Source: Coptis chinensis (Eukaryota; Streptophyta; Magnoliopsida; Ranunculales; Ranunculaceae). Taken from it: DNA of 64,000 nt. The stretch is taken from the NCBI GenBank assembly GCA_015680905.1, contig CM027378.1, positions 88,193,501 through 88,257,500 on the forward strand. The letters run 5' to 3'. The notes below the pieces were generated by a model. That model saw only the letters and a list, made by a program, of their open reading frames with translations, did not search any database and was not told the DNA's origin. Below, piece after piece: positions 8,581 through 64,000 of this stretch (positions within the stretch are counted from its first letter, which is position 1; every line of letters begins with the position of its first letter). Made by a program: the position numbers and the translations under genes.

Positions 8581-8599
8581 AAAAGAAAAAAAATCAGAA

Positions 8600-11765: not shown

Positions 11766-11769
11766 GTGT

Positions 11770-12374: not shown

Positions 12375-12679
12375 GCTTTGATTTCCTATATACCAAGTAT
12401 AGACATGAAGACTTGAACCAATAATAACATATGAAATAAGCTAGGTATCAATAACTTGGACAATATTAATTAAACAATAATAAGACAAATGATCATCCAT
12501 AACATGAATTAAAGTATTAAGGCAAATATAAATATCAAAGTAGGTAATGCAATTCACATTTAATAACAATATTCAATAGTCAAATAATAAAGGAACAAAC
12601 TTGTTCAAACATCTCCATAGAAAGGAAAAAATCATAACATGCTCTAACTTAATCGTTTGAGGTAGGGTCGACATAAGTC

Positions 12680-42284: not shown

Positions 42285-42645
42285 GTGACAAGGATCAAAA
42301 TATCGCCTATATATCTTGGTTTTTGAGGTATTTGATATTGTTATATTACGATATATCGGATGGATATATTGACACATTAACTGATATATACCAACCGATA
42401 TATAGATATATCCGATAGAGATAGTTGACTTTGATCAATCTTTAACTGATTTTTATTAATATATCAACGATATTTTCGATATAATTGGCGATATTTATGA
42501 TATTTTATGATATATCGACATACAAAACAAAATTTTGACTGGTCAACAAAAAATATATATATCTACCAATATATCGATATATCTTATAAATATTAGTTTT
42601 TGGGGTCCGATATATCGCCCGATATCGAAATATCATGGTGAGGAC
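42285..42645. repeat. CGATATAT-rich dispersed repeat, copy B
   Basis: Same word content and orientation as 40481-40935, ending at GGGGTCCGATATATCGCCC. The two copies bracket about 1.35 kb that includes the hAT-like MITE. Confidence 0.6.
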
Positions 42646-43225
42646 TAAAGAAGGTGTTTTGAAATTTATCAATGAAAGTCATATAATTTTAGAAACATAT
42701 GGGAGGTAATTCTAAAACTAGTGAAATAAGAAAATCTAAAATAAACTACTCAGTAGTGGGGAGGGGGGGTATATATATATATATATATATATATATGAGG
42801 CGGATCTTCTCATCCGTGTAAAAGGAGCCTTTTACACCTTACAAAATTATATTGACACTGCCTACTCATTTAACCCCCCAAAATTTACGCAACTAACGGT
42901 GTTAGATAAAATCCAAAAAAAAAAAAAAAAAATACACAAATTAGGAAGATTCCATACGGGTTTATCTCCACACTCTCTCTCTAAAAGTGATCTTGAAGTA
43001 AAAAAATAATCTCAACAGAGAACAATATTCTTTCCGTTTTTCACTTTTTCTCCTAAAAACGAAGAATCATCTCTCTTTTGGTATGTTATTCTCACTTTTT
43101 AACTACAATTATATACTTGTACTTAAGCCTTATAATTTGTCCCCAAAAATTGCGGAAAGGTGAAACTCCATTTGTATTATGAAGTTGCCGTTGAATCAAT
43201 TTTTTAAATTGTTAAGCCTTATATA

Positions 43226-44075
43226 CTTGATGAAGGAAGAGCCATAAATCTTTCTCTCATTCTTGGGGACGTTATTGTTTGCTCTAAAAAGAAATCGTGG
43301 TCATGTACCGTATAGGCAAGTTCTCAACCGGGTTTTATCACTTAAATTAATTGTTTATATTCCTTTCTTTGGGTTGTGAGTTCCTACTACGAGGATGATG
43401 ATCCGTTCTTGCTTTGATGCTTCTAGTCTAGCTTAACATGTTTATTTCATTGTTTTGCGTAAAACAAAGTATAGCTAACTCAAATTCTCAAAGATTCACT
43501 TGGTAGGATATTGCAACTTTGAGTTTATATGTAGTTGTTCATGTTACCCGCTTTTCTTACTTGTTTCCTTCTAACTTGTTAGGTGATGGTTCAAAAGTGT
43601 TAATGCTTGTTCACACTAGCCCATGTGAAGAAGATGTTGGGGAGACTACTTGCTCTTTGATTTTCGCAAAGAGGCGGTGAGGGTCTGTAGAGTCAAACAA
43701 AGAAATTCATGAGGTACTAACTCTTGAATGTCCTAAAGTATTAATGTTTATTTATTTATTTTTGGGTACAAACATGCTTAGTAAGTAGCAATGGTTTTAA
43801 ATGGTTTTGCCTCGTCGCTGTTTATTTGAGCCCAAACCGGTTTTAGGTAAATGATGCTAGTGAGAAAGTCTACTTATTTGGTCATAATCAGCCCCGCCAT
43901 GCTTCAGGGACTTGAAGAGGCATCGAGAGAAGACTATTGTCGAACTCAATCAAAAGATGAGAGATGCCGAAGAAGATTGTCAGGAAGTCAAGAACCAAAT
44001 TCTGAAAGCTGAATTCTCCTTTATGAGACAAAAAGATCCTTCAATTGCTGAGATGATAAAAAGATATTCCATCCT
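43226..44075 (+). pseudogene. Kinesin-14 motor fragment captured by the MULE
   Basis: Three plus-strand exon-like pieces fit the C-terminal half of a plant kinesin-14 motor. 43226-43320 reads GRAINLSLI, then LGDVIV and KKKS, with HVPYR in a shifted frame. 43583-43713 reads [31 protein letters not shown], then VES-NKEIHE after a shift, ending at GT. 43908-44075 reads DLKRHREKTIVELNQKMRDA, EEDCQEVKNQILKAEFSF, the charged coiled-coil tail after the motor, ending at GTAAGC. In kinesins these parts bind microtubules and lead to the neck or coiled coil. The nucleotide-binding P-loop is absent. Introns are retained, so the capture was from genomic DNA. A piece (ATTCTCCTTTATGAGACAAA) is repeated at 44335-44356. 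Confidence 0.75.
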
Positions 44076-44408
44076 GTAAGCCTTTTTCAATTTTCTTGTG
44101 TATTTTTTTTTTCCGGTTATGCTATTATAATTTGTGAGCTGACTATAATCTTATATAAATAGACAAGTTCCTTTTGTGTGTTTCATATTTAGAGGAGCAG
44201 GAGTCTTTAAGTATGATAGATACAATAATTAAACATGACCTAAGTAAGTAATTTAGCCAATTATGTTTCAAGTATCAATATCTTCCTTAAGGGCTGCAAT
44301 AATATGGTCTGTTGTACTTGTCAAGTATGTGGCATTCTCCTTTATGAGACAAAATACAGTAAATGCCGCAGTAGCGTTACAATTATGTACTTAACAACTA
44401 TGTGCAAT

Positions 44409-44850
44409 GGATCTTTAGCTTAAATGGAAAAAGCTTTGAGAATTGACCATGTCTCCAATGTATCTCAAGAGATGGTGGTTCAAGTCCACCAAGATCCTTC
44501 AATGATTTGTAGAAAGATTGTCTAACTAGCCAAGGGGAGCTAGGAGCTGGACTTCTTGATAGCTCGCGTTGAATTGTTAGTGGCTCGTGTTGCTTTGGGG
44601 TCCTCGCAGTGAATCTCCATTGTTTGTAAAGTAGGAGTTGGTCCTTTCTGAGGGGTTATGTCCGGTGGCTTGGGTTTATGAAAATCTCCCTCACTTGGCC
44701 TTCACGGACTCGGTATAGGTAAGTTATCTTTGTCCTTCTGGTTTAAACATTTTTTATATTAGTTGATTATAGCTTATATATATGGTTCTTATCAATAAAG
44801 TTTTTTTTTCATCAAATAAATAAAAATAAAAATAAAAATAGGTGTTAAGA
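44409..44850 (+). mobile_element. SINE-like unit with a tRNA-like head
   Basis: 44409-44499 folds on paper as a cloverleaf. The acceptor stem is GGATCTT/AAGATCC (7 of 7), the D stem GCTT/AAGC with loop AAATGGAAA, the anticodon stem TTGAG/CTCAA, a five-base variable loop, and the T stem GGTGG/CCACC with loop TTCAAGT. Only the anticodon loop is abnormal (23 instead of 7 bases). GGTTCAAGTCC serves as a box B. A unique body follows, then an A-rich tail with repeated AAATAAAAATAAAAATA up to about 44841. This is the layout of a tRNA-derived SINE. I see no clear target duplication. It lies inside the MULE. Confidence 0.55.
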
Positions 44851-44961
44851 TGTGTCTGCGACGGAGAGCCTTGGCATGCATTAAAGTGGAAATTTAATTC
44901 TTTGAGAGTCGCTCATAAGTTAGGGTCTTTGAATTAAAGTGGAAATTTAATTCTTTGGAGC

Positions 44962-45153
44962 TTGTGCTTGCACAGTTGGACAACCGTCGCTCATGCCTAT
45001 AAGGAAGTTAACGAGGATGTCTATGGAACTTTTCGATATGTCAATCGAGGAGAAATTAGGAACTATGCAGTCCAAATAATGATGCAAACCTTTATGAAAT
45101 TCCAAATTTGGTTTTCAGTTGTAGCTGTGGCTGCCTTCTTATTTGTGTTGTAA
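44962..45153 (+). CDS. Unidentified frame with a C-terminal membrane segment, inside the MULE
   Basis: The frame reads HSWTTVAHAYKEVNEDVYGT, FRYVNRGEIRNYAVQIMMQT, and ends with a hydrophobic helix FQIWFSVVAVAAFLFVL directly before the stop. Its look is that of a real C-terminal exon of a tail-anchored or membrane protein. I do not recognise the family. Just upstream, ATTAAAGTGGAAATTTAATT occurs twice (44879 and 44934). As it lies between other captured pieces it may be a further capture. Confidence 0.35.
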   Translation: MCLHSWTTVAHAYKEVNEDVYGTFRYVNRGEIRNYAVQIMMQTFMKFQIWFSVVAVAAFLFVL

Positions 45154-45879
45154 TTTTTTTAATGATGAAAACTTGCATTGCTCTTGGATTTTCGATACTG
45201 CAATTGGAAAGCTATATGAGATTGCAGACCACGGATTTTTTTCCGTAGCATTAGCCGCGGTGCATAGATAGTGAATGAGCTAAGCTATAACTTGAAATGA
45301 TTTCCTCCATAGGAATCGCGGCATTATGATAGGATTCCAAAATGTCAAATCATTAATTAGTAGTCCTTTTATCAGATATTCTAGTTATGTATAAGCCGCT
45401 AACCGTTATAGACTTGAGGTTCATTGTAAGAAATTCATATAGTGCTCTTCAAACAAGGCAAACGTAATGATAATAATCATATCATTATCGAAAAAAAATG
45501 ATATCTTCACAAAGATTCATGAAGAACACCGATGGGTCATAAGCGAAAAAACAAAACAAAAAAAAACGAAGCTCCTACGAAAGTTGATCGCAGATGGTAA
45601 ACGCTACAAAACCCCGAGAATGTAAGAATTAACTTGAAAAAAAAAGCTCAAAGTGCAACCGGGGCAGGAGTTATAAAGAAACTTAGATTATTGTCCACCA
45701 ATAAGAACACTTAATAGTGAAAGTAGGGGGGATTGCAAAGCATTTGAGAATCTAAAATACTGCCATACCAAGATTCTTCTAGAAAAATTGCAACAAGTTA
45801 GATTAGTCTACTCTTCGTATAAACGTTGATCTGATATGTTTACAATTTTCCCACTCTTCACTTGGAATAGGACACGATT

Positions 45880-46064
45880 GGGAAGATGCTTTCGAAATCG
45901 GGCACGCTTCCTTGCACCGCCGCCATCTTAAGTCTCTCACATCGGCAACCTCGGAAGTTGGAGGATAGCATCGGCATACTCATCGACATCTGAAGCAAGG
46001 AAACCCATCTGCTGCCCATCTTCTTCCAAAGCAATGTCCATTTTAGGGCCTCGCGACTTAGGAG
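45880..46064 (-). pseudogene. ALG11-like mannosyltransferase exon captured by the MULE
   Basis: The minus strand, starting after an AG at 46065, reads [35 protein letters not shown], followed by ERLKMAA and, with a one-base shift, ARKRARF. This matches the C-terminal region of plant ALG11, the GDP-mannose alpha-1,2-mannosyltransferase that adds the fourth and fifth mannoses to the lipid-linked N-glycan precursor on the cytosolic face of the ER. Conserved features are GPKMDIxLEEDGQxTGFLA and DEYADAIL. In-frame stops and the missing rest of the GT4 enzyme show it is a relic. It lies downstream of the OTU-like block on the same strand. Confidence 0.8.
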
Positions 46065-46479
46065 CTAGAGAGAACACCAAATAGATACTTTGTAAGTGGA
46101 AAAGTACGTTTGCATTTGATACCGAAGCTATCTTGCCCTCCACTTTTAGGTAAAAAACACTAATTAGCTAGTAGCATCCCAAGGCAGTATATAATAACAT
46201 CATCATGAGTCATATTTGTCCAAAATACCATTGTTATAATTCAAGAACACAAGAGTTAGAGGAAAACACTTTCAGTTTACAAGTTCACTGAATTTTAAAC
46301 AAACAACAAATAAAACAAAATGTAAGTAATTAAAAGTTTTCTCATTTAACTACAAATCAAGACTTCCTACATAAATGAAATATAAAGCAAGCACTATTTT
46401 TTTTTTCTTTCCAACAACTAAAACTAATCTAGATAAACATATTGTAAGCCATATTGGTGGGCAGATCAAGCCCACTTGT

Positions 46480-47250
46480 CCAACTTTCCTTTTAGAACGG
46501 TTTCCCATTGTTGCTTTCTCGCCATCTAACAGATCGCCAACCTGGGCAAACCGGAGGTAGAGGAGCATTATCCTTTAGCACAATTGGCACAAAATGTGTT
46601 CCTTCATTTATGTGGCAAACAACGATTATCCGAACATTTCTTACGGACTGCCCTCAACGGGAAGACGTAACACATAATTTTGGTGGCGCTATAGTGACAA
46701 AAACAACATTAAAAGCACTTGCAACTAAGGAACCCATGTCCGGGAGATCAAGCCATTCTTTCTCATTCATTGTAGAAGACTTGGTACACTCTAAGTTTCT
46801 TTTGTGGTTTTCAAACCCGTCATTACCATAACTCTCAGTATAGTAATCAGATATTGCATCAACTCTTCCAAAGATAAGACCCTTTATCCCGCCATGCTAA
46901 ATCATCTGTATATCCTAACAGTGTAGCTATGGATCTATAACCACAATGCCCATCCGGGGTTACCTCAGCCAAATCTTTAATCATATCGCAGATCAAAGGA
47001 TTAAAGTCGGGCAAAATATTTTCCCACTTATGCTCGAGGTCTTCATTTTTAGAATTATCTCCGACCCAATATTTTTTTTTTTTCTCTTCAATTTTCTTTT
47101 GGCCTCTTCTCTTTTCTTGTCGCCATTATTGCTAACAATTTGAGAGTCTTCCAAATCAAATTTTCCGTCAAAAGAGTTCTTGAAAGCTAAATGAGTCAAG
47201 GTCATCGAGGCGATCCACTCCAACCCCAATAATACGATTCATTATTGAAG
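46480..47250 (-). pseudogene. OTU-like cysteine protease domain of the MULE
   Basis: The minus strand reads PDGHCGYRSIATLLGYTDDL then AWRDKGSYLWKS (about 46860-46965), followed by EKEWLDLPDMGSLVASAFNV, VFVTIAPP (about 46670-46780), and NEGTHFVPIVLKDNAPLPPV (about 46540-46620). DGHCGYR is the OTU catalytic box with Asp and nucleophilic Cys; the histidine is in THFV. LPDMGxLxAxxxNVV is a signature of transposon-borne plant OTU-like domains next to FAR1-type transposases. OTU proteases cleave ubiquitin chains; activity here is unproven. Upstream, 46993-47229 is a lysine-rich linker. It is probably spliced or fused to the transposase gene upstream. Some frame changes are present. Confidence 0.7.
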
Positions 47251-48139
47251 TCCAACCTTCTACGTGGTGGTAATTGATATTCTTCAAATTTGAAAGCCTA
47301 TATTAGTAAAGAGATTGATATAAGCTACATTGCTACAAAATGAAAATCTAAATATTGGCATCGTAAAAAGAGATATCCCAACAACAAATAAAATGATATC
47401 GGGATAAACATACCGGATCAGTATTGAGTTCCAATAGTATTATCTTCGATGAACACATTCATTTAAATCGTAGTCCCCACATATTGGTTGATTGTGATTG
47501 CCCTCCAATTTGGTATAAACTACATTGCTACAAAACCAAAATATAAGTATTAGCACGTAAAACATTTAAGCAACAATAAATAAAATGATATAAAGATAAA
47601 CATACTTGATCAGACAGTTCCAATAGTATTCTCTTCGGGATGAACACTTTCATTTAAATCGGGTAGTCCTTGAGCAATATTTATATCACCTTGTTCTTAA
47701 AAAAAAAATAAGATGAGACAAGTTAAAATGTTAGGCAAATGTTAGATGAGAAATAAATGAGACAATATATGCAATCACATGGGCAAAATAAAAATGTAAT
47801 GTGAATTATGACAAACCTTTCTTGTTTTTCTTTATCTTTTTGAAGGCACTTGTGTTGTGTTCATTTGTTTCTTTTTCTTTTAAAGCTCCAATACCTTCAT
47901 TCGAGTCCCGCTTCATTGGTCTCCCTTTTCAGATCCGGATGCAACAACCAATACTTCGCCATCATTTTCTTCAACATTTGTGGCAACACCGGATCTTTTG
48001 GACTTCAAACATTGTCTTAGATATATTTCTTTCATTGGTACAACCCTCGCTCAACTTCTTCCAATCCCTTTTGAGTGCATCTTTAGCTTTTAGATATCCA
48101 TTTTCATTGATCGCCCTTTGTCACAAGCTTCATTGCCAA

Positions 48140-49905
48140 ATGACATAACTCATTGTATCGCAAAGATTGAACTGCATTGCAATTTGACAAATTTGGTTTG
48201 CTACCATTGTCTCTTACAACTCCGACTTTCAACGCTTTAGTCCACCTCTCAGAAGTATATATTGATTAGAATCGTATGTATATTATTATGATAAAATACC
48301 TTCAATATGTGACGACAAATAAGGCCAAGGGACTCAAACTTTTTGCAGCTACACTCGGTCCCGAAAAAGTTAGACATATCAATTCAAGACCTTTCTTACG
48401 CCCATCTTCTCTAGTAACTTCATATGTGTATGTTGTACCATCAACACTGCATTCCTTGATGTTATACATAAGATGTTCCTTATACTCAACTTCAAATATT
48501 TCAAAAACAACATGTGTGTACATATCGACGCTTGCTTTAGCATGGGTGTAGAGACAAATAACCTTTGGGACATCCGAGATGAATTGAAATCGGCTTCAAT
48601 TTCTACCGCTGCGTCGCGACTAAGTAGACACTCAAAACGATGAACAAACTTAGTCAAACTATACTTTCTCTTCACATAATTTTTCAAGAGACTATTGGTA
48701 CTTTCTCCACGGCGGTAGTGGTCATGTCTGCACAAAAAATGTCTCGCCCATACACTAATGCCCATTTCTTCTTTATTTTGATCAATTCAACCAACCACTT
48801 ATTTTCCAAAAGATCATAATCATGCAAAGATCTTGTCCCATCTTGATAAAAAATATCCTCCTCGTCTCACAATTGTATACACACTTATTGAAGTCGTTTA
48901 GAAACCCGGAACTCTGTATACATGGTGGAGGTGCTTTTCAACATTTAGATATATATGCCACAAACAAAGACGATCTTTGTTTTGAAAAAACAATTGGGAT
49001 AGCCTTCGCTATTCTTTGACACCGGTCGGTAAGAATAGTCTTTGGTGGTTTTCTCGACATTGCTTTTTAAAAGGTTTCAAACAACCATTTAAAAGACTCG
49101 GCACTTTCATCTATCAAAATCGCACCCCAAATATAATAGATCGCATATGATGATTGACACCAACAAATGGCTAAACGGTCGTCCATACTTGTTTGTTCTC
49201 CAGAAGTCGTAAAAAACAACAACATCTCCAAAGTAATTATAATCCATCACCGACGTTGCATCCGCCCGCCGAACATATTTGATAGTTGATTTTCATCATC
49301 ACGCGCAACTCATCGTAAAAAGAAAGATGGATTCTCGGCTTTCTTCCTTTTAAAATATTCTATAATTGCATTCCCATCTCCGTTTTGCCAAGTTCTTGCT
49401 CACGCTTCTTACGGAGATAATTTTTATAATCGATGTATGTAAAACCAACATTTTCTAGTCCTCCCGCTTGATCGTCATATATTTATAACTATCAATAGAG
49501 CGCAATTCTGCAAAGATCTAAACTACTAATTTCTGCTCCTTGTGGCTCTTTAACACGCCTTTGAGACCTCAACATGATACGTTGGATGGGGTTGCCAACT
49601 TCGTGGTTATGTTCATGTACCACCTCAATAACAACCCATTCGCTTTTACATTCGAAATAGCCATGTGAGCTTTGCAACCAATTCTTGTTTTAGATTTATC
49701 ATTTTTCACATTTTCATTCCGCTTATCCTTTTACGCACACCTTCCTTGAAACATACAAAGAACCGCCTCCTCAGTTTCTATCTGCTCTATAATATATTTT
49801 GTCCTTCCTAATACTAAAACCGATTTTATGAGCGTAGGAATTATAACTTGCATATGCCTCTTCCTCAGATTGAAAAATCAATCCCTCATATAACAAATCT
49901 TCCAT
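48140..49905 (-). pseudogene. FAR1-type MULE transposase
   Basis: The ATG at 49905 opens MEDLLYEGLIFQSEEEAYAS then YNSYAHKIGFSIRK, the FAR1 DNA-binding (WRKY-GCM1-like) fold. WVVIEVVHEHNHEVGNP with LRSQRRVKEPQ completes it by about 49540. The catalytic MULE domain spans about 49290-48900, with GDVVVF, AGAILIDESAESFKWLFETF-like text and KTILTDRCQRIAKAI. Next is GISVWARHFLCRHDHYRRGE with STNSLLKNYVK and EAEADFNSS (48765-48550), the region before the SWIM finger. The SWIM zinc finger reads CSCKKFESLGLICRHIL (about 48290-48345). Domain order equals FAR1/FHY3 relatives, which are domesticated MULE transposases. The frame is interrupted in several places as read. Confidence 0.85.
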
Positions 49906-50229
49906 TGTTAGTTAAAGAGATTTTCTTTTCTTTGGAGGGAGTATGAATAAAACCTTTTTTTTTTTCTTTTTTCGGATAGAGAGTTGAAGAAGAGGGCGAG
50001 ATTGTGGAGATTTCCCTCCCCCCATTTTCCACGTACAGAATCTTGCCTTATTCTTCCTTATTTGTAGCGATTTTATTTTGATTTTTTTGGTATCTTCTAT
50101 CTAACAATCGTTAGACCTCTTTGTTAATGGGTGTTAAAATGTGAACAGGTGTCACTATATTTTTGTAAAGTGTAAAAGGGCCACTTTTACACCGGAGAAA
50201 AGATCTGGCCTCTATATATATATATATAT

Positions 50230-51314
50230 TGTAGAGAATGTTTAAAACCATAATATGATGGAATTTTGTCCTAATCATGGACTATGGTTTAAACTTCAGA
50301 AGCCAGATCGATGAGGGACGGGGATCGGTGGCATGAAACAATCGGCTATAATAGTCTATGTGGTTCGGACTGTGACATGCACGTGAATATCTTTACATTT
50401 GCTGTCGTGGTTAAACATTTATTAACACACGTGCATGGCATGATAGGTACATGCTGTGGGGTATCCTAGTTTGAGTTCCTAATTGAATTGTTCGTGATTT
50501 CGTGTGTAACCTGGAGTCCCGGACTGCTGTGGTCTTCGTGATTTCGTGTATCGTGCGCAAGTAATATGGGCTGTTGGATTCAGTGGTCCAGTCCCATGAG
50601 TGGCCCAGAATTAGCGTATGGTGCTTCATTTATTTATTTATAGCAAACTCACAAGTTTTTCTAGGAGTTCTCATATAGCCCCTACTGATTTTACAAAGGG
50701 CACCAAATACTAACTACAAAGCAAACGGGTTTTAAATCTAGTAATGAAAAAAAATAACATTTTAAAATAATTTATTAATAATCAAAACACAAATTTTTTA
50801 TGAAATCTTATAATATTCAAAATCAATCAAGAAAAAATTTATAAAATTTATCACTAATTAATTGAAGATACTCATTGATTTATTAAAAGATGATGATTGA
50901 ATTATAAAATTTATCAAAATTTAGAAGAACCCCAACACGAAAACAAATAATTCTCATAATAATTTATGAATCAAATCTATAATCTTTTCTCCACAACATT
51001 ATCACAGTTGAATTCAAATCAAATCAAAACAAAACTTACTGAAATTATACAATCGCGCATTTGAATATGCCAATTTGTTCAATTTTATAGAAGATAATTG
51101 AAATTTTGAATTTTGTCAATATTGAAAATACACATTGAATTAATTGAACACAAGATAAAACCAAACTAATCAAAATTAAACAAATTTAATCTTAAGTGGT
51201 GCCAATTTAATTTTCAAGTGGTGCCCATTTAGTTTTAGAGTATATTTGGTTTTGTTTTGGGTGTGGGCAACTCTTGGCAAAATAAGTGGTGCCTTTATGA
51301 AAACCCTTTTTAGT
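50230..51314. other. Unannotated AT-rich spacer between MULE and second CACTA copy
   Basis: No gene, RNA or element end seen. A run of AAATCAAATC/TAATTGAA-type sequence from 50700 to 51180. Confidence 0.45.
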
Positions 51315-51760
51315 CACTACTCTGAAAAAGCTCATATACCATTTGTTATTTACTTGGTAAAGCCCAACAGCCAGCGTTTTACATACCGTGGGTAACAACC
51401 ACCGTGACAAATACTTCTAACAAAACCGGTGGGGAAAATATCTCTTATACCACGGTTTTAGTAAAAATTGGTATTGAATTTACAAACCGTGGTTAATAGC
51501 CCGAAAAGTCTCGCTATATTATTCGTGAACCGTAGGAAATATCTCTTATATACCACGGTTGGATACAACCCGTGGGTTATATAAGCTGATATATACCACG
51601 GTTGGATACTGAAAAGCGTGGGTTATATAAAGCGATATATACCACGGTTGGATACAAAACGGGTTATATAAACTGATATATACCACGGTTAGAAACCGTG
51701 GAAATAAAATATGATATATACCCACGGTTGGATACAAACCGTGGTTTATAGTTTTTTTAA
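51315..51760. repeat. Left terminus and palindromic subterminal repeats of CACTA copy 2
   Basis: CCACGGTT ... AACCGTGG units separated by TTATATAA-CTGATATATA, matching 3581-4005. Some units are damaged at the CCGTGG core. Confidence 0.75.
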
Positions 51761-52339
51761 ATAAAATCCCTAATTATTTGATTCTAATCATATTCATTCA
51801 ACTGCCTACCCCATTTTCACCATATATATCCACACACTTTGGATTTAAAACACATTGCTCAAATAAGCAATTCATAGTGCAACACAAACAAAAGAAATAA
51901 ATTTACACATCCAACACAAAGACATTGAATTGCTAAAAAGAATTTTGAACTTTTTGAGTCATCAATAATAAAAGAAACATCCAAATTTACTTGTTATATC
52001 AAAATAATAATGACCTAACTTTTGCAAAAATAAAAAAAAAAAATCTATTTGTTCCATCTAAAATATCAAAAAAAAAAAAATGGTGAGACCAAGCACCACA
52101 CCTTAATTGGAAAAGGTCAAAACCTAGCTAAGACTTCGGCGGCATGCCTCGAGCAGCTCCATTATGCTGGATGAATCTAAGAATTTCAAAGTCCTAACAA
52201 CATCAAGTTCCTCTTGTGTGTATGTATCTTTGAGGGATAGATTTGTCATCCGCCGCGATCAAAAGATAAAAAAAGTATATAATAACTAAATAATGAAGAA
52301 GTAACACAAAATAGAGAATGCTAGTGTATGATGAAATAT

Positions 52340-53781
52340 ACCTTATTTTTCAAAAAGAATTATCTAAACAAGCTTCCATTATTTCTCTCATAAACTTCAT
52401 TACGTAATACCCGCATTTTACTACCCGAGTTGGTACGGGCCCTAAGTACAAACATGGAAAATATTCATAAGCATATATTTTTCCAAACAAGATATATATG
52501 CATAAGAATTTGTTTATTACCATAATCCTTCCCCCCAATCGGACCTTTTTACTTCCTTTCCTTCAAGTCTTTCTATTTTCATGACCACACTTCAAAATAA
52601 GATCAATGTAAAACCTAATTAGCAAGTAAAAAGATAAGCAGCGAATGATCTAATTATTTCATATACATACACAATCATGACAAACCTTGTTAAAATAGAT
52701 ATCCATATCATTAGATGGTAGATTATGCATCGAATCCAACCAATTAAAAAGTCATTCAATAAATTAATAGCAATCAAAACCCAATGTCCACTACAAAAAG
52801 AGGCATGTGTTGGTTAAAAAGAAAAAATTAGGCATTAAAACTATAATATACATTCCAATGAAAATGATAAAACATGGATAGTATTAAAAATATAAGACAA
52901 TATTCTTACCCTGGATTATAAGGGATAAGAACAACTCTTTTTCCACTTGTATTATGCAAGCTCTCCACAATAATTTGAGTTTCTCATTTCCATTAAGCTC
53001 TTGTGAAAGATAAAGGGTTTATAAATCCAACGACATCAATGCATAACTGGAAATTAGATGTAAAGAATCCTAGAGAAAGAAAAAATAAAGCAATCATAAT
53101 TACTAAAACTAAATATGAATATCTAAGATTTTACGATAGCACCAACAATGAAATTTTGCAGATATTCTAACCTCATGTATACCACCAAAATAGCAACATC
53201 TAACCAACCCATGTTACATACATCCATTATATCGCTTTTTCTCCATAATGAAACTACCCATATTATCTCCAAACAATTCTCCTCCTATTGAAAATGTATT
53301 TAACCTTGGTCCCTCTGAAGCCATATTGAGGAATCCCACAAATGAATCTATTGCACCTTGATTATGACTATCACTAGTTTGATTTTTACTTCCCTAAATT
53401 AAAAAATCCAGAACAACCAATTATTAAAGAGAAGCCAAATTCAGTCGATCATATAACTTCATATTAAAGAATCTTGTTATTTACCTCAATGTCGCCTTTT
53501 ATAATAGACATGGTCCTTTTGGTCAAGGAACTTGTGTGCCAAGAGCATCTCACGACATATCTAAGCTCCTCCTCATTCACTTGTATAGGAAGAGCAAGGC
53601 GGCCTTCTTCTTCGTAAACAAGCCATACAACCCTTGACCCGAACATTATTGAGTCCCAAGGGTAACCGTTGAATTTCTTTTTTAGTTTATTTCCCTCGTA
53701 TACCAAGTCAATAATTTGTTCGACCAACCGCTGCCAAATAACATTTTTTCTATATAAATGTCTAAGTATCATAATAAGCAC
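52340..53781 (-). pseudogene. Ulp1-like C48 protease domain, CACTA copy 2
   Basis: Minus strand: KCGYYVMKFMREIMEACLDN near 52350-52430 contains the nucleophile. The HWVLIAI / WLDSMHN exon lies near 52700-52790, VVLIPYNPG near 52910-52960, and a GWLDVAIL-type exon near 53170-53290. Compared with copy 1 the glutamine-containing PYQPGS box is garbled, with a small rearrangement at a CCTGG-type site. The N-terminal piece is 53464-53781. Confidence 0.7.
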
Positions 53782-54149
53782 ACAACATTATATTTTAATA
53801 ACATATTACGTGTAAACTACAATTTACCTCCCCTAGACCAAATGTTTGACCTCGTGTTTTTCTTATTTGCCTTGTTCACATGATCAAATTTAGCCAAATT
53901 ACACTCTAGGCCCTACAATTGAAGTATAAATCTTAGAACCATTTTAAAATTATATATATAATGTGTAAACACTACTTACCTCTCTGGACCAGATGTTGGA
54001 CCACTGAAATGATGTTTGACCCGTGTTTTATTCTTATTTACCTTGTTCACACGATCCCGATTGAGCCAAATTACACTCTAGGCCCTACAATTGAAGTATA
54101 AATCTTAGAACCATGCAAACATTATTAAAATTATATATATCACGTGTAA

Positions 54150-55265
54150 AATGCTACTTGCTTGTCCTAGACCAGATGTTGGCCTCGAAAATGGTGTTAG
54201 ACCTTCTTTGTTTCTTATTTGCTTTGTTACCATGATCCGCTTTGGGCTTTGATGGAGGTTGGTCTGCCTTCCCATTTTTTTCAGCTATTAGTCGAAAAAT
54301 AAAATTTGTAGAAGGTGGAATGCATAAAATGGTTAAGGTCAAACATTTGTTGCACAAACACTAGATGCATAGCGATGAATGATGCACAAATAGATGGCAG
54401 GTTACCAATAAAATAAAATAAAATAAACATTCATGGTAACTTACTTGGCTGAGCATTTTTTACTAGTCTACTAGATTGATGTTTGTCGGATGAAGTGTAT
54501 CGCCCGATCAATATTGACACTGTGATATCTTGTTTGAAGAGATTTTTTCAGATGGTAAGGAGTTATCTTTGTCCTCCAACCTTCTGACTCTATCCAACAA
54601 CAACCTAACGTCTTCCCTCAAGGCGGTAGTTTTTCAGTCCCGTTTCTTGAATTGTTGATTCCAACTTTGTAACATGTTCCTTTGAGCCACGTTTGTTAAC
54701 ATGGAAATCGAGTGACGGGGATGCTCGGTGTGCCCAATACTAGAGTTAGATCATCTTTACTTCCTTCAATAACTACCTTTCCCTCCTCTACTTCCTTAGT
54801 CAGCACATCCTTCAATTAAGTTTTGAAGCAAACAAGGATTTAGTAAATCCAAATCTGACAAAAGCATTCATGTCTAACATTAAAACATAATAATAAATGA
54901 TTAGAAAACTTACAATCTTTTTTAGCCACTCTTCCAGAGTTGCTACTTCAATATATTTTCCTTTTTGAGTAAGCTCTTTTCCATATTGAAGGCCTTGGTT
55001 TTTCCATTAAAAGGATGGTCCCAACTCTTTTTTCTATGGTTACAAAATAATCACAAAGCAGCCAGGGGTTAATGTCTTTGAATGTCTTTGGAAACTCTTG
55101 GTTGAAACATTATCATACCCAAAACAAAATAACAAGTGCCTACATGTATAAATGTTGGGGCGGACAATGTACTCACCAATTGTTCTCCAATATCCCGGCA
55201 AATCCCGTCTTGCCCGCCCTATGGTTATATACTTTTCTTTGCTGCCGCTGTGAATTAAGTTTGCT
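54150..55265 (-). pseudogene. TNP1-type C-terminal exons, CACTA copy 2
   Basis: Counterpart of 6663-7563. The ALGTPEHPGR box is partly deleted (54690-54740 has only CGGGGATGCTCGGTGTGCCC of it), and the coiled-coil exon (54540-54650) is recognisable with shifts. The AKVYNHR exon lies near 55200-55260. Confidence 0.65.
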
Positions 55266-55319
55266 AATTTCGAAAAACATGGAATTAGTAGATCTTTAGG
55301 AATAAAACAATATATAGGT

Positions 55320-56390
55320 TTAATGTGATTGGATGTCTTTAATAGTGGGGATTAATTATCACAGCACACATCAAAGGCAATTTGGGAGGTCACATTCCTA
55401 TTAACAACCTAGGTTGGCACACAATCCTAGACTATCAAAGAACGCTTTGAAGTTTAGATGCAAAAATACTTTGTAGATGACATCTATGGCCGGTAGAATT
55501 TGGGGAGGTCACATTCACTCATTAACGTATTGCAAAGAATTTTAGAGGACCAACTATTTAAAGGTGCTTACTGTAATTGGGTTTGTGCGCATGTTGATTG
55601 CCATGTTGTTAGGGCCTATATCGACAAATTCATTATGTTGGTAGGAGAACAAAAGAGTGAATGAGACATTTAGAGAACACAGTCACATTATTTTCATGAA
55701 TGTTGGCGCATTTTTCATGACTTAATGTTGGCGAAGTCACTCGCAGCTAACTCTCCTCCACTTTAGCTCAACTCTCACTCGTCATAATGATTTTCATGAC
55801 TTAATGTTATGTGAGGTTTCAACATTAGCAAGAAAGGTTCGATGACGCTAAGAGTATTCCGGCATCCTGTTCCGGCCTAAAAGTCGACTACAAGTTATAA
55901 CCGAGGGAAGCCTTCCCAATGCCCGATTTCATCTAACCGAAGGCATCAAAGGTAAGCCAAAGTCGATAACGCCACTACCCGTTCTCTATAATATAGCTCT
56001 CACTCTTCGGGCTCTAATAGCTCCAACTCTCCGCCATAATAGTTTCGCTCGCATGTATTGTAAACAAAATTTATGAGCTTACGCCAGCCCATATAATTAA
56101 AGCTTAGAATATAATGGAAGAGCAACCGGGGAAAAACATATGGAAAGGCCAGACGGTATGATAATGTATGCTGCCGACAAAATTCAAAAGTGCTTAACAA
56201 GTGTATGCCGACAAGACCAAGACTTGCTAATCAACTACATCGACATTTTCATACAATACGCTCGTGTTAAAACAATCATCAAGCATTATGGATCGCGTGT
56301 ATAACAGCGATTAAAGTGTATGCCAGCTTTTCGATTTTCCGGCTTTGTGTATGCTTTTTCCAGAGGAAGCAAGGTTTGAAATGTTTCGTG
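55320..56390. other. Copy-2-specific segment in the CACTA cargo region
   Basis: About 1.07 kb replaces roughly 0.57 kb of copy 1 (7640-8205). Words repeat inside it: ATTTTCATGACTTAATGTT occurs at about 55789 and, as TTTTTCATGACTTAATGTT, near 55711; GGGAGGTCACATTC occurs at about 55383 and 55504. I see no domain. Confidence 0.5.
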
Positions 56391-56423
56391 CACCATCTCC
56401 ATTTTCCACAGCTACTATCGAGA

Positions 56424-56740
56424 CGACGATGAAGACTAATAAATCAAGACCCTCTCTACTATCACCATCATAGAGTAATCGGGTCGAGTTTTCGGCAATC
56501 GGGCGTCGAAGTTTTTGAATACCGCCGAGGTATCTTCCATCGAGAGACAATACGCTTTAGGCAATCGGTCGAGTTTTGAATCCGTAGATGTACCATCGGA
56601 TAGTATCAAGCCGAGAGATAGCCAAACTCCCCTCAATCGAAGCGTCGAGTTTTGAATATTCGAGTCTACGACTAATAAAGATGAAGACCTCTACTATCAC
56701 CATCAGATAGATAGTGAATTAAAGAGAACTTCAATGCATC
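56424..56740. repeat. Diverged tandem duplication, about 240 bp, in copy 2
   Basis: GACTAATAAA-CAAGACC-TCTACTATCACCATCA appears at about 56430 and again at 56668. TCGAGTTTTGAAT recurs at 56477 (as TCGAGTTTTCGG), 56570 and 56647. Copy 1 shows a single version near 8205-8300. Confidence 0.5.
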
Positions 56741-56799
56741 GCCTCTAAGCCAATGATACTCCTCGTGTCCTTGATCCTCAATACCATTCAAGAGGACCT

Positions 56800-59560
56800 T
56801 ACCCAGAACTAAAAGGGAGGGAATTGATATCTCCTCAACTCTTCGCTAAGCCATCAATGTTCAACCTATGACCAATCAGCTAACAGCCCATGACCTAACA
56901 AAGAAAAAATCAGAAATAAGAAACTTATCTTTGACTTGAACTTCACTTTCCAACTTGTTAGAGTAGGCTTTCATCGAACTAAAACTCTATCTTATGTTCA
57001 ACTCTCGCTTTCTTTCTTTCTCTTGCCTTAAGGAAAGCAATCGATGGATTGGATCATCCCGGGCTGGGGATTGAGCTCGGCCGGCCTGAAAGCACTACGA
57101 CGACTCGCTCGGCAACCGCCGGTTTGAACTAAGGTGATTTCCGAAGTGAAAACACATTGTATCCCTCGCCACTTCCTCTCAATGTATTTCTTCCTTCGCT
57201 TTGGGGCTATGGAAGGTACCGCCTTTGCCCAAAGCTACCAAAGAAACCGAACCCTTGAAAGAACATGGATTTCAACCAAGGTGCCAAAGACAAGAAGAGA
57301 TTTTTACCACGATGTTAATAATCATCGGGTCGAAAGTCATTTAGACCCTTTTTCCTCTATTATCTTATGTCGAGGTCCCCAGATCCAATCTCATAGTATA
57401 GGTTCCGTCTAAGCCTCAATCGCTTAATCCCACCCGAGAGAGAGTATGTGCATGAGTTTAAGGTACTTCATCCTCACAGACACACTCTTCTCAGATCCCT
57501 CTTATTGAGTGAGGACTTATTTGATTCGATTGCCTTTTAATCCGTAATATACTGAATAAATGGCTTTTATTATCTCCTACACGCTACTACAACACCAATA
57601 TACTTTTTCTTTATTTCCTTACTTTACTTTGGTTCAAAAACTAGTGGAGCTAGAGATTCGGTTGTTTAACCTGAGGCAATGAAATTGTTATGCGATGGAA
57701 GGACTGTTCCCTTTGCTTGTATTTCTCCCCGGTTCTCTCGATTGATCGATCAGCCATTATGTGCAGTGCAGGCGGTTTTAGTGCCTCTTAGCTCTAGGAT
57801 TATTCATGTGACCTGGTCTCACTGACTTAACCGCTGACAAATGCATTTTTTCTTCTATGTAAGGATGGATGATAATGGGTTTCAGCATCCTCTATTAGCG
57901 AAAGCCAGTCTACTCTTCCACAAAGGTGTACAATGCGTAAAATCTGTGGTTCTTAAGTTCATTCACTGTTCTTACTTCTCTAATCATTTCTTCCATTATG
58001 ATATAATGAGCATGGGTTTACTAAAAAGAGAAGCCACTTAGACGAAAGAAAGAAAGAAAGTCACTAAACTCACTAAAGTACAGCATGGATCTTCAGCAAG
58101 GAGAAATAGAGCTCATACAAGAATCCTGATATAGACACTTAACCTCTATGTTCGGTCCCTTGACTTGTAGTTGCTCTTCGCTTGGCAATTGCAAGAAGTA
58201 GTTGAATCGATCTATCGAGTTGGCAGCAGCCGTAGCTGATTCATTAACTATTCATCAAATAACAGAGGGGAATTTCATTGCAATTACTAGGTGTCCACGG
58301 CACTTTGGTACCGCCAAGTCTGCCCCGGCCGAGGTCTCAATTCATCGCTAACCTTGAGTCTCTCTCTATTGATTGATCTACTGAATCAACGGCAAGAGGC
58401 TTCAACCGAGCAATCGGACTATAGGCTTGCTTGGTTTAGTCGATCAAGCGTTCAATCTATCTATCATTCATACTTTATCGAGATATTGGGTTGGTCGAAC
58501 CACCACGAGAGGGTTTTACTACTTCGACTAAAGGGAAGGATAAACCGCCACTTGACCGAAGGGGACTACGGGAGTATTAAGCTAGCCTTAAAAGAATGCG
58601 ATAGGTTTGCGGTTCGGAGATGCAATAGAAGCGAGTTTCAGCGGTTGATCTAGTTTCATCGATCGCTCTAGTTGAAGCGATTCTGTTGATGAAGCAAAAG
58701 CAACCAAAGCAAGGAAGGATCCTTGGCTTACGAATGGCCCCATATCGGCTAGTCGACCGAGTTTTGGGTTATCTCGTATTCGAAGGCTGCTTTCGCCTTT
58801 GGCTACATGTGGATGGATTCTCTTGTACTTTAGTTCTAGTTCTAACTTTATTTTCCAAAACATATTTTTTTCTTGATAATATGATAACTCCTCAACTAAT
58901 CATTATCTGCCCCAAGGGATAGATCCAAAGACAAGGCTGCTATATTCACGCCCTAGCACCTAGTTGGTCATGGCCATACATCAAGGTGCAACAAACCCGA
59001 TTCGTCCGAGTATAGACCACCGTTGCAACAAAGCTGTGTCTCTGAACTTTATAACACTCTCCATAACATATCAAGAACAAGGTGATTTCGGAGTGAAAAC
59101 ACATGTTGTATCCTAACTCAAACTTCCTCTCGATGTATTTCTTCCTTAGCCTTTTGGGGCTATGGTCTTGCCTTACTTAAAGCTACCAAAGCTGGAACCC
59201 TTGAAAGAACATGGATTTCATCAAGGTGCCAGCACAAGAAGATTTTTACTAGAACTAGCTGTGTCACTAGCGCTTAAAGAATCACGATAGGTTTCCACAG
59301 CGGTTCGGGGATCTGATAGACACAGCGAGTTTCAGCGATTGATCTAGTTTCAATCGGTCGCTCTGTTGAGCGGTCGTTGATGAAGCGCAACAAAACAAGG
59401 AAGGTCCTTGGCTCAACGAATGGCCCCATATCGGCTAGTCGAGATAACGTTACACGGTATAGACTTGCTTTAGTCCTGATATGATGCAACAAGCTTGCAA
59501 CAAACCATTTTTCTTTTTCATTATAGCAGAACCTTCTGTTTGTTTTACTTTAAAAGGTTC
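56800..59560. other. Mitochondrial-looking cargo, CACTA copy 2, with internal duplication
   Basis: Collinear with 8500-10730 of copy 1 (same landmarks AGCACTACGACG, GGCTTGCTTGGTTTAGTCGA, GAATGGCCCCATATCGG). Additional material: 59080-59260 repeats 57130-57310 and 59240-59440 repeats 58560-58760, as if the block had been duplicated and its middle lost. No mitochondrial gene recognised. Confidence 0.5.
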
Positions 59561-60575
59561 TAATAATATACTCTGATTGTGATTGGCGCGATAGACTCAC
59601 ACAATTTACACCCAAAGTATATCATCCATCTTTATCGTAGGGGATTGTTCATGCTTTGTCTAGAACCTAGGAGGTCATGGTTCAAGTCGAGTCTCTATAT
59701 GCTAGTGGTTGCTAGTTCCTATGGACTTACAAATTCTCATTAGGAGTTACAAACTTTTCGGGCACTTGTTAGAATATGCAATCTATACTCTTGATCTTCC
59801 AGATTATCCACCGCCAAATACTCTTCACAATCGGGTCAAGGAATGGTACGGTATATCACGGATACTTCACAATCTAAGGAATCGCACAATACTTCACAAT
59901 CGACCACCACTATCACGGACAATACACCACCCCAAGTGAACATTACGGTACTTTGCAGTATAGATTACAATTTTACATGGTTTGTCATTTTTTATATGAA
60001 TCAACTAGTATCAATAATAGAAAATCCAATTTAAGATGCATCTTGAAGAAAATACTCATATCGGCTAAGGAAGGGCACCTCTCCGCCATTCTAAGAAAAT
60101 ACTCATAATCCAATTCAAGACCAATAGCGTAAGGCAAGTATGGCAATTCATATCAATAGTAGGGGGAATGAGAGACAAAGACCAACACTAAATCGGATAT
60201 GCCCGAAAATGCTTAATCTTTTAAAAAGTACAAGGTATCAATGTTCTATACTATTCTAAAAGTTGGCTACTATTTAGGAAAACCTCCTTAACTAAAAGCA
60301 GCACCTATTTTAGAGAGGAAGTAACTGCTATCTAGCAAGCGTCTGAACTTCGTGAGACTAAGCCCGGACTATGACTAAAGAGACTACCAAATTACTACCC
60401 ACACCCACACCCAAAGAGAAAATCCAAAGATAAAGTAATAGCACATGGGCTGAGGTTTTAGGGATGAAGGCAGATGGAAGTATCGAGAAGATAGAATGCT
60501 TGTTAACCGTAAATGAATACAATTATCCAAAACCAATCAAACTAACAAAAATAAGTTATCCTAACCTAAAATTTT
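59561..60575. other. Transposon-internal non-coding segment, CACTA copy 2
   Basis: Matches 10720-11765 closely. No coding signal. Confidence 0.5.
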
Positions 60576-60599
60576 TGGTGTCGGTCTTGACTTCACAAA

Positions 60600-61189
60600 T
60601 CTTTCCCAATCTTCCTATCTAATATTTTTCTCGTGTTTTTAGGCGGCTTCAAAAGCATTTCAGGTTGGTCTTTGTAGGGGAGTGATATAGTACCTAGTCA
60701 ACCGACTCTTGAATTCTTTCCATTTCTCACCAATATCCGAGAATGACACCATTTCTTTTAAATTCGTCAAGCTGAATTTGGCCTATAAAATAAGAATAAG
60801 CTATAAAGTTACAATAAACTAAGACTAATTAGACAATTAATATTACAATTGGAGCTATTTACCTTTATACTATCCCATAACAAGTCTCTCACTTCATCTC
60901 CGACAGCATGCCAATTTTCATAATCAACAATAGAGATTCGGGACTCCGCTAACAAACCTGAGTAGCTTGCCAAATCCTTTCCGCCTTCCCCTATACGTTG
61001 ACCATCTTCATTGTATTGAACATTCAATAGTTCACCCTCTCTCATTTTTGTTATCTTTTTGCATTGAACTGCTCCTCTTCCTGTCCTTTCTACACTTGAA
61101 GCTTGTGTATTGTTAACTTCCATTGGTGTATCGGAAGTCTCGTCAACTCCCATATCTGAATCGGAATCAGAATTCTCTCCTGGATCCAT
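60600..61189 (-). CDS. TNP1/TNPA-type gene, N-terminal exons with Transposase_24 core, CACTA copy 2
   Basis: The ATG at 61189 begins MDPGENSDSDSDMGVDETSD, TPMEVNNTQASSVERTGRGA, VQCKKITKMREGELLNVQYN, then KDLASYSGLLAESRISIVDY and WHAVGDEVRDLLWDSIK. It then meets a GT donor (GTAAATAG) around 60860. The second exon near 60660-60780 carries KEFKSRLTRYYI and PYK. The first exon is unbroken here, unlike in copy 1, so this start is preferred for the family. The acidic, low-complexity N terminus and basic middle are usual for TNPA-like proteins. The downstream exons of the gene are separated by the cargo, as in copy 1. Confidence 0.75.
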
Positions 61190-61479
61190 GCTGATTTCCT
61201 ATATACCAAGTATAGACATGAAGACTTGAACCAATAATAACATATGAAATAAGCTAGGTATCAATAACTTGGACAATATTAATTAAACAATAATAAGACA
61301 AATGATCATCCATAACATGAATTAAAGTATTAAGGCAAATATAAATATCAAAGTAGGTACGAATTCACATTTAATAACAATATTCAATAGTCAAATAATA
61401 AAGGAACAAACTTGTTCAAACATCTCCATAGAAAGGAAAAATCATAACATGCTCTAACTTAATCGTTTGAGGTAGGGAT

Positions 61480-64000
61480 CGACATAAGTCCCTCACAATC
61501 TACACGCCGCATAAGATGATACTTGATGCACCCAACTAAGGGAGTCAACATCTGGAAATACTTTACTACTTGTATGATCTAGCTCATCCTCATTCCCTTC
61601 CTCAAGGTAGTCTCTTTCAGGAGTCCTCAAAGCTATTGGCCATTTTAGATTGAGTTGGTCAGGTACATAAAAGACTTGCTTAGCCTGAGAGGCCATCACA
61701 AAAGGGTCTTCCTTATGTCCAATTCTACCAAGGTCAACAGAAGTGAAACCCAAATCATCTACTTTGATGCCATTTCTGTTGTCAACCCAGTCACACTTAA
61801 ATACTGGGACTTTGAGTACCGATAGTCGAAAGCGACCATATCTCAGCTTATAACACCGTAGTAACCCATTTCAAAACAACGGGGTTCTTATCCTTTGCAC
61901 TAGAAATTTGCCTTTGTTGCCATTAAACCTACACCACTGTTTTGGTTTACTAGTGAAGCTTCATGATCCTTCGTATGAAAATGGTATCCACCAATAACAT
62001 AGCCTGAACACTTTAGAACGTCTCGACGAGGTCCTTGAGCTATAACTTTCAGGGTGTTTGAAAGTTTGTTACTGGTAGCTGCTGCCTCCTCATTAACCTG
62101 ATTATCCAAGTTATCCAAGAATCTTAGTCGAATTTAGCAAAGTTGTATTAGATGTAAAATAATTTCAGATAATCTTACCCTTTGACAAATCCAATAAATG
62201 AATGTGCGAGTGTGCTCATCTTGATACCATTTGGCTGACTTACGAGGATAAGTAAGATTTAGGTGTTCCATATGCTTCCTATCAAGTTAGGAAAAAAGCT
62301 TGGTCACCATTATCTGTCTAGGTGAAATAAGGAAAAACAAAATTCTATACTAACGCGACTCGATATAAGGTTGAGCGTCATTAGTGTTTGCCAAAACACA
62401 TTGATGAAACTTGCTCCCAAGTCTTCTCGTCGACTTCAACAACATTCATACCACCAAGAGGCTTTCCATAAGAAATTGTATTTTCTTTCTCCGTATCATT
62501 AGTATCCATGTTTCTAACTGATGGGACTCCCACTGCATTCACTCCAGATAAATACTCGCTAAGAAACTCAACAGCTTCTTCAAGGATATAATTTTCAGCA
62601 ATGCATCATACGGGCGATTTTGATTCCGCCGCGTAACCCTTTTAGTATTTTCATGAACCTAATATTCAAAAAGTGACAAAAGAAGATAAAATAAAAACAA
62701 ACAAACAATCAAATTGATGAAGCTTTTTACTGAATTATTGAAAGTAGTTAATTCAATTTTTTGTGTACTTGCCTCTCAAATGGATACATCCAACGAAAAG
62801 AATACCGCCCACAAAGCTCAACCTCCCTTATAAGATGAGCAGGATAGATGCACCATGATGTCAAAGAACGATGGTGGAAAGTACATTTCCAGTAGACATA
62901 AAGTGAGGACCAAATTGTCTTGAATTTCCTTTAATTTGGACACATCCACTACTTTGGTGCAAAGAGAGTTGAAAAAAGAAACACAACCGAGTGATGGTAT
63001 ACCTCACGTGCTTTGGCAACACCGATCGTGACGCCCGGGGAAGAAGTTGTCTTTGCATCAATATGTGACAGTCATGAGACTTGAGACCATACACTTTTAA
63101 ATCTTGCATCGACACGCAATGTCTAAAATGTGAAGAATATCCATCGGCACTTTGAGTTCACGCAACGTGTTGCATCTTTATTTCTTTCTCAGGCTCTAGA
63201 TAACGTATGACATGCTGGTGGAAGATAAGTCCTATTTCCCCTTTTCTCTGGTGCTAGTTCCTTCCTCATGTCCATTTCTAAGAGGTCTAGGTGACTTTTG
63301 AGGTCATCTTTTGTCTTGTACTTAATGTTAAGTAGTGTGCCGATGATGCTATCACAAATATTTTTCTCAATATGCATGACATCCAAATTGTGTCGCACAA
63401 GCAAGAATTCCCAATATTCAAGCTCAAAAAAATATGGATCTCTTCTTCCAATAATTACCACTTTCATTCTCATCAGAAGTGCTAGGCTGCTTCTCTCGTG
63501 TTTGTGACTCTTCATTGGATGCCTTTGACTTCTTTCTTGATCTTTTTGGCTTTGGAATCACCAGCTTTGGTTTCCCCCATCTAACCTTCATCCCTTTGAG
63601 CTTCTCTGAAATCACCTCTCCAGTTAACGGGTCCGGATGTGATCTTAACTCTTGCTAACCATTAAATGCCTTCCTTTGCCTTCGATATCGATGATTTTTT
63701 GGAAGGAACTTTCTATGGGACTGATATATGTTTTATTCGAAAGTGTTTCAATCTTGTAGAATCAGTTTTCTCACCGCATATTGGACAAGCAAGATATCCC
63801 TTGACACTACACCCCTAAATTTCCAAAGAGCAGGAAAATCATTGATCGTCCACAGTAGAACAACCCTTAATGTAAAAGATTCTTGCTTGTAGGCATCATA
63901 AACCTCCACACCAGGATTCCAAAGAGCCTGTAAATCTTCAATTAAAGGTCTAAGGTAAACATCAATATCATTACCAGTTGTCCGGGGACTGATATCAACA
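61480..64000 (-). pseudogene. TNP2-like transposase gene, CACTA copy 2, 5' part beyond window
   Basis: Contains, from the C-terminal side: DLGRIGHKEDPFVMASQAKQ (61493-61753), YVIGGYHFHTKDHEASLVNQ (61900-62118), AENYILEEAVEFLSEYLSGV (about 62500-62620), YGLKSHDCHILMQ (62861-63115), LDVMHIEKNICDSIIGTLLN (63189-63515) and CPICGEKTDS (about 63740-63800). Long parts are identical to copy 1 at base level, while short scrambles occur near GG, CAG and CTG sites. The transposase-associated domain and the start codon lie outside the window. Confidence 0.85.

Follow-up and report, generated by a model that had tools for sequence, protein, structure and literature searches.

A Mutator-like element of Coptis chinensis with one transposase arm and a left arm probably filled repeatedly with host DNA

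A Mutator-like transposable element (MULE) of 7.4 kb occupies positions 42797-50212 (C2:88236297-88243712) of a 64,000-bp stretch of the Coptis chinensis genome (contig CM027378.1 of assembly GCA_015680905.1, C2:88193501-88257500; the whole stretch is called the window, and positions given without a contig refer to it). The description that agrees best with the element and its relatives is that of a two-armed MULE, in which a right arm with a transposase and an OTU-like gene is accompanied by a left arm repeatedly filled with host DNA, and we assign this reading a probability of roughly 0.8. Most of the copies examined retain all or part of the right arm, which reads from the right terminal repeat, and the left arm, on either side of a core spacer of about 250 bp, would be a cargo region that host DNA entered more than once. 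The host fragments recognized in the window copy, one from a kinesin gene and one from an ALG11-like glycosyltransferase gene, are DNA-level copies that lie inside the terminal repeats of transposase-bearing copies. An earlier note on this DNA had proposed a MULE that holds both a transposase and captured host exons, and this coexistence within one element was found in the window copy and in several of its sisters.

Ends of the element and sister copies

The left and right terminal inverted repeats lie at 42797..42946 (+) and 50063..50212 (-). The ends had been described as paired over 62 bp; the pairing is real, but the alignment extends over about 150 bp (local score of 93 vs. a maximum of 31 in 500 shuffles; E of 1.6e-12 when the two ends of the window copy are compared by blastn). 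In four sisters the terminal repeats share 117-124 identical bases per 137-146 aligned. Inside the left repeat follows the element's own left subterminal sequence (42947..43216, +), which also occurs in the kinesin-less sister C7_92. The nominal 9-bp target-site duplication (TSD) of the window copy, TATATATAT, proves nothing because the element sits in a TA run, with a (TA)13.5 microsatellite on the left (42770..42796), a TA run on the right (50213..50229) and flanks shared with two C3 copies; its placement is impossible and it is uninformative in this copy.

The sisters supply what the window copy does not. The genome (936 Mb, 116 contigs) was searched with the best candidates scored (for the left end, the best 40 of 167), so that all copy counts are lower bounds, and 15 regions containing 16 elements were fetched. 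When flanks were compared, exact 9-bp TSDs were found around seven sisters. Three of these carry kinesin, ALG11-like and transposase sequences (C5:76565259, ttagattta; C5:76580964(-), tttaattaa; C6:23385518(-), aaattttaa), two are kinesin copies with parts of the transposase (C4:84496730, hereafter C4_84, tttgatgtg; C5:65408037, C5_65, atttatgat), and the others are C2:67897043 (C2_678, attcttaaa) and C9:79282056 (C9_79, ctaaatata). The copy at C3:80417685 (C3_80) has a 9-bp TSD with one mismatch. For the remaining sisters there is a TA run (C3:19305820, C3_19305), a single end in hand, or a right end that cannot be placed (C2:98922769, C2_989). Long terminal inverted repeats, a MULE-type transposase and, in the sisters, a 9-bp TSD together place the element among the MULEs.

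The complete set of kinesin, ALG11-like, OTU-like and transposase sequences is found in the window copy and in five of the 16 fetched elements: C3_19305, C5:76565259, C5:76580964(-), C6:23385518(-) and C5:83990680(-) (C5_83990). The last is internally deleted, and on the right its match already ends at 50138, so that the right end is not seen. Kinesin without the ALG11-like piece occurs in C4_84, C5_65, C3_80 and C3:19277501; of these, C3_80 (on the minus strand) has no transposase and is a Pack-MULE-like derivative, and the match of C3:19277501 to the window element ends at 44948 within the fetched stretch. The reverse combination, ALG11-like sequence without kinesin, is seen in C2_989. Both host pieces are thus common to sister copies, and since three full copies elsewhere enclose them within their own exact 9-bp TSDs, the fragments travel with the element and are neither outside its ancestral ends nor part of a nested insertion.

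Captured host fragments

The captured kinesin fragment, with introns, covers 43226..44016 (+) and corresponds to positions 1487-2254 of the reverse complement of the parent locus (L037, C2:71186121-71189874). Its motor exons (43248-43677, +) gave Pfam values of 1.7e-4 and 0.11, both short of the Pfam cut-off; the best matches in the PDB were KIFC3, KIFC1 and KCBP (E of 1e-6 to 4e-6), and one exon compared with the PDB at a threshold of 1e-15 gave no match. The parent has open exons with kinesin motor matches of 1e-20 and 2.2e-10 in Pfam, and at the level of sequence it settles the kinesin identity of the window fragment. The earlier assignment to a kinesin is therefore confirmed by a parent gene, and the narrower class of kinesin-14 is presumed for the captured motors.

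A whole-genome search with this piece returned 17 rows, which include 10 elements with the window copy (one split over two rows), the parent, an intron-poor copy at C2:18421137 (three rows) and a neighboring insert of the left arm alone (two rows). The elements hold 1487-2254 with introns, three of them starting at 1463 or 1479, and the retention of parental introns means that the kinesin sequence was copied from DNA. Divergence from the parent in 13 copies, after removal of CG and CHG positions (as in the divergences given below), is 0.4-2.8% for exons and 0.8-3.0% for introns, with exon borders set by eye and interrupted copies represented by their best-scoring aligned block. The kinesin piece as such is about 1.5% diverged from its parent, and the captured exons show no sign of selection.

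A second search (15 rows) identified six elements that hold L037 positions 517-1361, which neighbor 1487-2254 without overlap. Four of the six are among the fetched sisters, C4:19546472 lies between two end matches, and C6:62133582 is 20 kb away from such a match. Of the remaining rows, one is the parent, two belong to the intron-poor copy, two are second pieces of two elements, and four are weak matches at other places. No element holding both parts, which we refer to as kinesin 5' (517-1361) and kinesin 3' (1487-2254), appears in either kinesin search listing. The junction between kinesin and core shows a shared ATTC...CTTT.

The segment C2:18421137-18421365 had been considered as the kinesin parent and was dropped in favor of L037, as it is without three of the parent's introns. 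The locus around it (L040, C2:18419637-18422750; reverse complement 802-1614) is a partly spliced kinesin copy, 97% identical to the parent, with three introns gone and one apparently retained, and its upstream sequence resembles the leader of a long terminal repeat (LTR) retrotransposon. It may record another capture of this kinesin gene, one that went through RNA.

The ALG11-like fragment (45844..46117, -) is the captured last-exon region of a gene at C3:124.179 Mb (C3:124179673-124179979), whose last exon is open up to its stop. The fragment is homologous to this exon; an upstream exon of the parent matches Pfam Glycos_transf_1 at a sub-threshold 2.7e-5, and ALG11 is the name that we presume for the gene. 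The search gave 28 rows, of which 13 places, including the window, were counted as elements (end evidence was seen for the 11 other than C1:66414022 and C5:19210624), and the others were the parent, three weaker paralogues and 11 rows matching the element's own edge alone. Since its divergence from the parent (about 7%; 3.7-7.4% over 8 copies) exceeds that of the kinesin piece, the ALG11-like piece is the older of the two. Two loci taken at first for ALG11 parents, C6:3686930 and C7:89245393 (76-77%), were superseded by C3:124179673.

The core spacer (44334..44591, +) has cargo on either side and was seen in all of the 16 fetched sisters except C6:62112748 (C6_62), whose fetched stretch lacks it. 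To the left of the spacer lies the neighboring insert mentioned above, insert X (44034..44333, +), which is 97% identical to the C3:107459432 region (L042) and stands between 21-bp direct repeats (44013-44033 and 44334-44354); it could be a SINE-like insertion (short interspersed element) or templated filler. To the right is segment Y (44592..45075, +), with a relative at C2:20587199-20587771 (L047) that is 84-88% identical to the window copy and 96-98% identical over 70-254 bp to sisters on C8 and C5. The cargo of C4_84 is of another kind: the ALG11 position is occupied by a 338-bp stretch with 97% identity to C3:10600639, which matches, as protein, PDB 2r60 (Glycosyl transferase, group 1) at 3.4e-9 and Pfam GT-B_Sucrose_synth at no better than 0.01. 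This piece presumably comes from a sucrose-phosphate-synthase-like gene. A second piece, 96% identical to C2:93122949, is fused to it in frame, giving a 223-aa open frame (L016:2433-3101, -) that joins the two. C5_65 has the C2:93122949 piece with just 44 bp of the C3:10600639-like piece, and C3_80 has the former without the latter.

The ends themselves show some variation as well. In two elements (L050 and L051, at C8:1014k and C5:49.8M) the left end is 77% and 76% identical to the right end of the window element (49904-50212), and terminal ends of elements may get replaced.

The transposase arm and sequence quality of the window copy

Remains of a transposase with FAR1 DNA-binding, MULE catalytic and SWIM zinc-finger domains cover 48252..49911 (-). 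The joined minus-strand open reading frame (ORF) pieces match Pfam FAR1 at 9.9e-10, MULE at 3.4e-7 and SWIM at 4.8e-7, all above the Pfam cut-offs, which substantiates the FAR1-type transposase noticed earlier. The frame of the window copy is interrupted at many places; a sister ORF of 376 aa (L026:536-1663) matches FAR1 at 2.7e-22 and MULE at 9.4e-28, and DNA of the transposase region is present in 12 copies.

The companion ORF of the element core (46495..47125, -) is broken in the window copy and open over 296 aa in a sister (L013:6249-7136). An OTU-like domain had been proposed for it, and the ORF and a reading of its motifs agree with this, but neither the window ORF nor the open sister ORF matches the Pfam OTU profile. 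In the PDB there is a weak match to 6dx5_B (listed as an RNA-dependent RNA polymerase; E of 0.18) with the DGxC box aligned. We take its DGHC and THF boxes to be OTU-like motifs, which no profile confirms, so the ORF reads as a putative OTU-like gene by its motifs. Beside it, a direct duplication of about 160 bp (47315-47476 and 47510-47669, 81% identical) is seen in most sisters that have that stretch.

Compared with the majority of seven sisters, the transposase of the window copy differs at 12 of 14 CAG and 22 of 27 CTG sites, against changes at 3.4% of CAA and 4.9% of ATA. At CHG positions 35.7% are substituted, only 10.3% as C-to-T or G-to-A; CCG (2 of 7) and CGG (2 of 8) change less often, and some contexts able to overlap CAG/CTG are raised as well (AGG, 3 of 10). 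Frame-changing small indels fall at CAG/CTG in 9 of 27 cases (10% of positions), at CG in 6 and at neither in 12. In the transposases of C6_62, C2_678 and C2_989 most of the change is of the C-to-T type, with three to five frame-changing indels, none at CAG/CTG; in the OTU region of C2_989, one of three is at CAG/CTG. Two CACTA copies of the window differ from each other in a similar manner (CAG 43-58%, CTG 21-31% and CGG 40-71% vs. CAA 5-7%). The changes take the form of CAG to CGG or CG and CTG to CCG or TCG, with indels, at 48001-50036 and 46233-47246 and also between 10684-15188 and 59495-64000.

These changes probably stem from base-calling errors at methylated CHG sites within repeats inaccessible to polishing, and we infer that the assembly is nanopore-based. 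An exact-phrase literature search returned no published description of CHG-related nanopore errors in plants. Methyl groups are described as hampering nanopore calls, with leftover errors that require short-read polishing (PMC7501810). The frameshifts of the window copy would thus be partly assembly error, which makes both the frameshifts and the apparent age of the copy unreliable, with a part unexplained. Unpolished errors of this CAG/CTG-linked kind can give young elements a dead, old look.

Transposase relationships and the origin of the cargo

The transposase-region tree comprises 12 copies and 1802 columns after CG/CHG removal, 229 of them variable. A single clade of the seven kinesin-3' copies is rejected (approximately unbiased (AU) test, 0.001 and 0.0003) because C4_84 groups with C2_989, C7_92, C2_678 and C6_62 (bootstrap 99). 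A single clade of the kinesin-5' copies is rejected as well (AU about 0.001, with or without C6_62), and one of the six kinesin+ALG11 copies is not (AU 0.52). Since the borders are shared within each kinesin type and neither type is one clade, either arms have been exchanged or an ancestral cargo with both parts has been lost in parallel.

Host fragments would have been taken up into the left arm at short homologies, through gap repair or template switching, and copies could then swap arms through similar repair; alternatively, an ancestor with a longer kinesin piece may have lost different parts. The transposase of intact copies would move the elements in cis or in trans, with the host exons as presumably neutral passengers. 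A stronger version, which we regard as possible but doubtful, is an autonomous element that would exchange its cargo: repair would join one transposase/OTU arm to different cargo arms in turn, the region beside the core spacer being refilled repeatedly, twice from neighboring parts of one kinesin gene, and the element would move itself and spread shuffled exons.

Several observations weigh against arm exchange and self-movement. Whole left-arm and transposase distances are 3.7% and 5.0% between C3_19305 and C4_84, 1.6% and 2.7% between C3_19305 and C5_83990, and 3.6% and 3.4% between C2_678 and C9_79. The two roughly agree within each cargo type, which leaves room for parallel loss and lowers the odds of cargo exchange. 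Assembly errors blur these distances despite masking, and the mechanism of capture is one suggested by the junctions. A full-length transposase frame was found in none of 14 copies scanned, two of which are without most of the transposase stretch, the longest frame being 376 aa with introns not modelled. The earlier suggestion that the element could mobilise its captured exons itself is not borne out by these frames, in which many changes fall at error-prone sites, and movement in trans is just as possible. A comparison of 330 bp at the left end in 19 chosen pairs had at first been read as demonstrating an exchange of arms and was set aside once the whole-arm distances were known; it is unreliable because it puts the window copy 7.2% apart from C3_19305, with which it has its insertion site in common.

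The possibility that the left half of a Pack-MULE and the right half of a coding MULE were joined once and then spread, without repeated capture, seems improbable. It would explain why transposase-less kinesin elements exist (C3:80417685, and C3:19277501 with its match stopping at 44948) and why the six kinesin+ALG11 copies can form one clade. However, at least three cargo sets (kinesin 3' with Y and ALG11; kinesin 3' with the C2:93122949 piece; kinesin 5') stand beside transposases that are 1.2-6.4% apart, two cargo types are not single clades, and C3:80417685 holds part of the right-hand cargo, as expected of a deletion derivative.

It is also important to consider whether the captured exons have been retained as chimeric genes that have a function and are under the control of the left terminal repeat. 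The kinesin fragment does point inward at the left end, with one orientation throughout the kinesin sisters aligned to the parent, and the open frame of C4_84 joins two host pieces; yet kinesin exons diverge from the parent about as fast as introns, and the exons of the window copy are frameshifted, partly through assembly error, which makes such retention very unlikely. Least probable of all is that another transposon brought the host fragments into a coding MULE by nested or juxtaposed insertion: insert X between its direct repeats does show that part of the left arm is inserted material, but the kinesin piece is collinear with the host gene, introns included, is common to copies elsewhere with their own TSDs, and is not bounded by any of the repeat pairs that a search of 42600-50500 listed. 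Chance similarity of the host pieces was rejected together with nested insertion on the strength of the sister copies, the TSDs and a parent with introns.

Arrival and surroundings of the window copy

The flanks of the window element are present again, together with a copy of it, at C3:19305820 (97% on the left, 93-97% on the right), and its left flank recurs at C3:19277501 (98%, left side compared). The non-repeat part of the left flank matches only the window and these two element-bearing C3 places among the best 40 of 1241 candidates; no empty site was found through the left flank among the same candidates, which is no proof of its absence. The right flank runs into one of two CACTA (En/Spm) copies (3580-15188 and 51314-64000, the second adjoining the MULE). 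Given the shared flanks and this CACTA continuation, the window copy was most likely carried along by a larger duplication, and it probably arrived inside the duplicated segment, not by its own transposition.

The first CACTA copy has Transposase_21, Transpos_assoc and DUF4218 matches at 13.5-16.3 kb (tnp2-type at 15.3-16.3 kb, DUF4218 at 13.5-13.9 kb), and the second has DUF4216 at 61.5-61.9 kb. Diverged tandem-repeat arrays near the first (1187-2581 and 18054-18870) are about 70-75% alike, with offsets near 55 bp.

Comparison with known systems

The parents, several generations of cargo and deletion derivatives are all available in one genome, which offers a direct test of how MULEs pick up DNA, and the same family allows the conversion of a coding element to a Pack-MULE to be tested directly. 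One annotation pipeline classes any element with a transposase match as "autonomous" (PMC8903248), and with such transposase-first binning elements like this one would not be counted there as gene-capturing. For animal Pack-TIRs (terminal inverted repeats), it has been proposed that replication-fork switching leads to multicopy capture and gap filling to single-copy capture (PMC8277862).

Pack-MULEs of rice, maize and Arabidopsis resemble the element in their MULE terminal repeats, their 9-bp TSDs around genomic gene fragments and their multiple copies. Host gene fragments lie between terminal repeats here too, but a transposase is present within the same element, and Pack-type elements are described as non-autonomous (PMC8903248). 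The contrast with Pack-MULEs drawn in the earlier note thus holds as regards the transposase and is in part a matter of definition, with coding elements that carry transduplicated genes already published for grapevine, including a MULE family with exons and introns of a cellulose synthase gene (PMC2528002).

KI-MULEs or KIU (VANDAL-type, with a Ulp1 domain) are likewise coding MULEs that spread with a transduplicated host domain (PMC13317346; PMC2528002). Their published description is that of non-TIR elements having a single conserved coding domain, in contrast to the repeats of about 150 bp and the several unrelated, neutral-looking fragments found here, where no Ulp1 match was obtained among the ORF pieces scanned (not every ORF was scanned). 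MuDR of maize has two convergent genes transcribed from the terminal repeats, one of them the transposase (PMC3310237), whereas here the second arm is cargo with no conserved second gene, and an OTU-like companion ORF is present. A published description of a gene-capturing MULE that bears an OTU domain was not found in the literature searched.

Hatvine-6 and related class II elements of grapevine share a transposase and ends around a variable remainder that often matches host introns and exons (PMC2528002). Hatvine-6 belongs to the hAT family, and a host gene split between sister lineages is not described for it in the excerpt; of the published systems compared, it comes nearest to a transposase that stays constant while the cargo varies. 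That arrangement is therefore already known, and the Coptis chinensis element is an unusually clear and well-resolved case of it.

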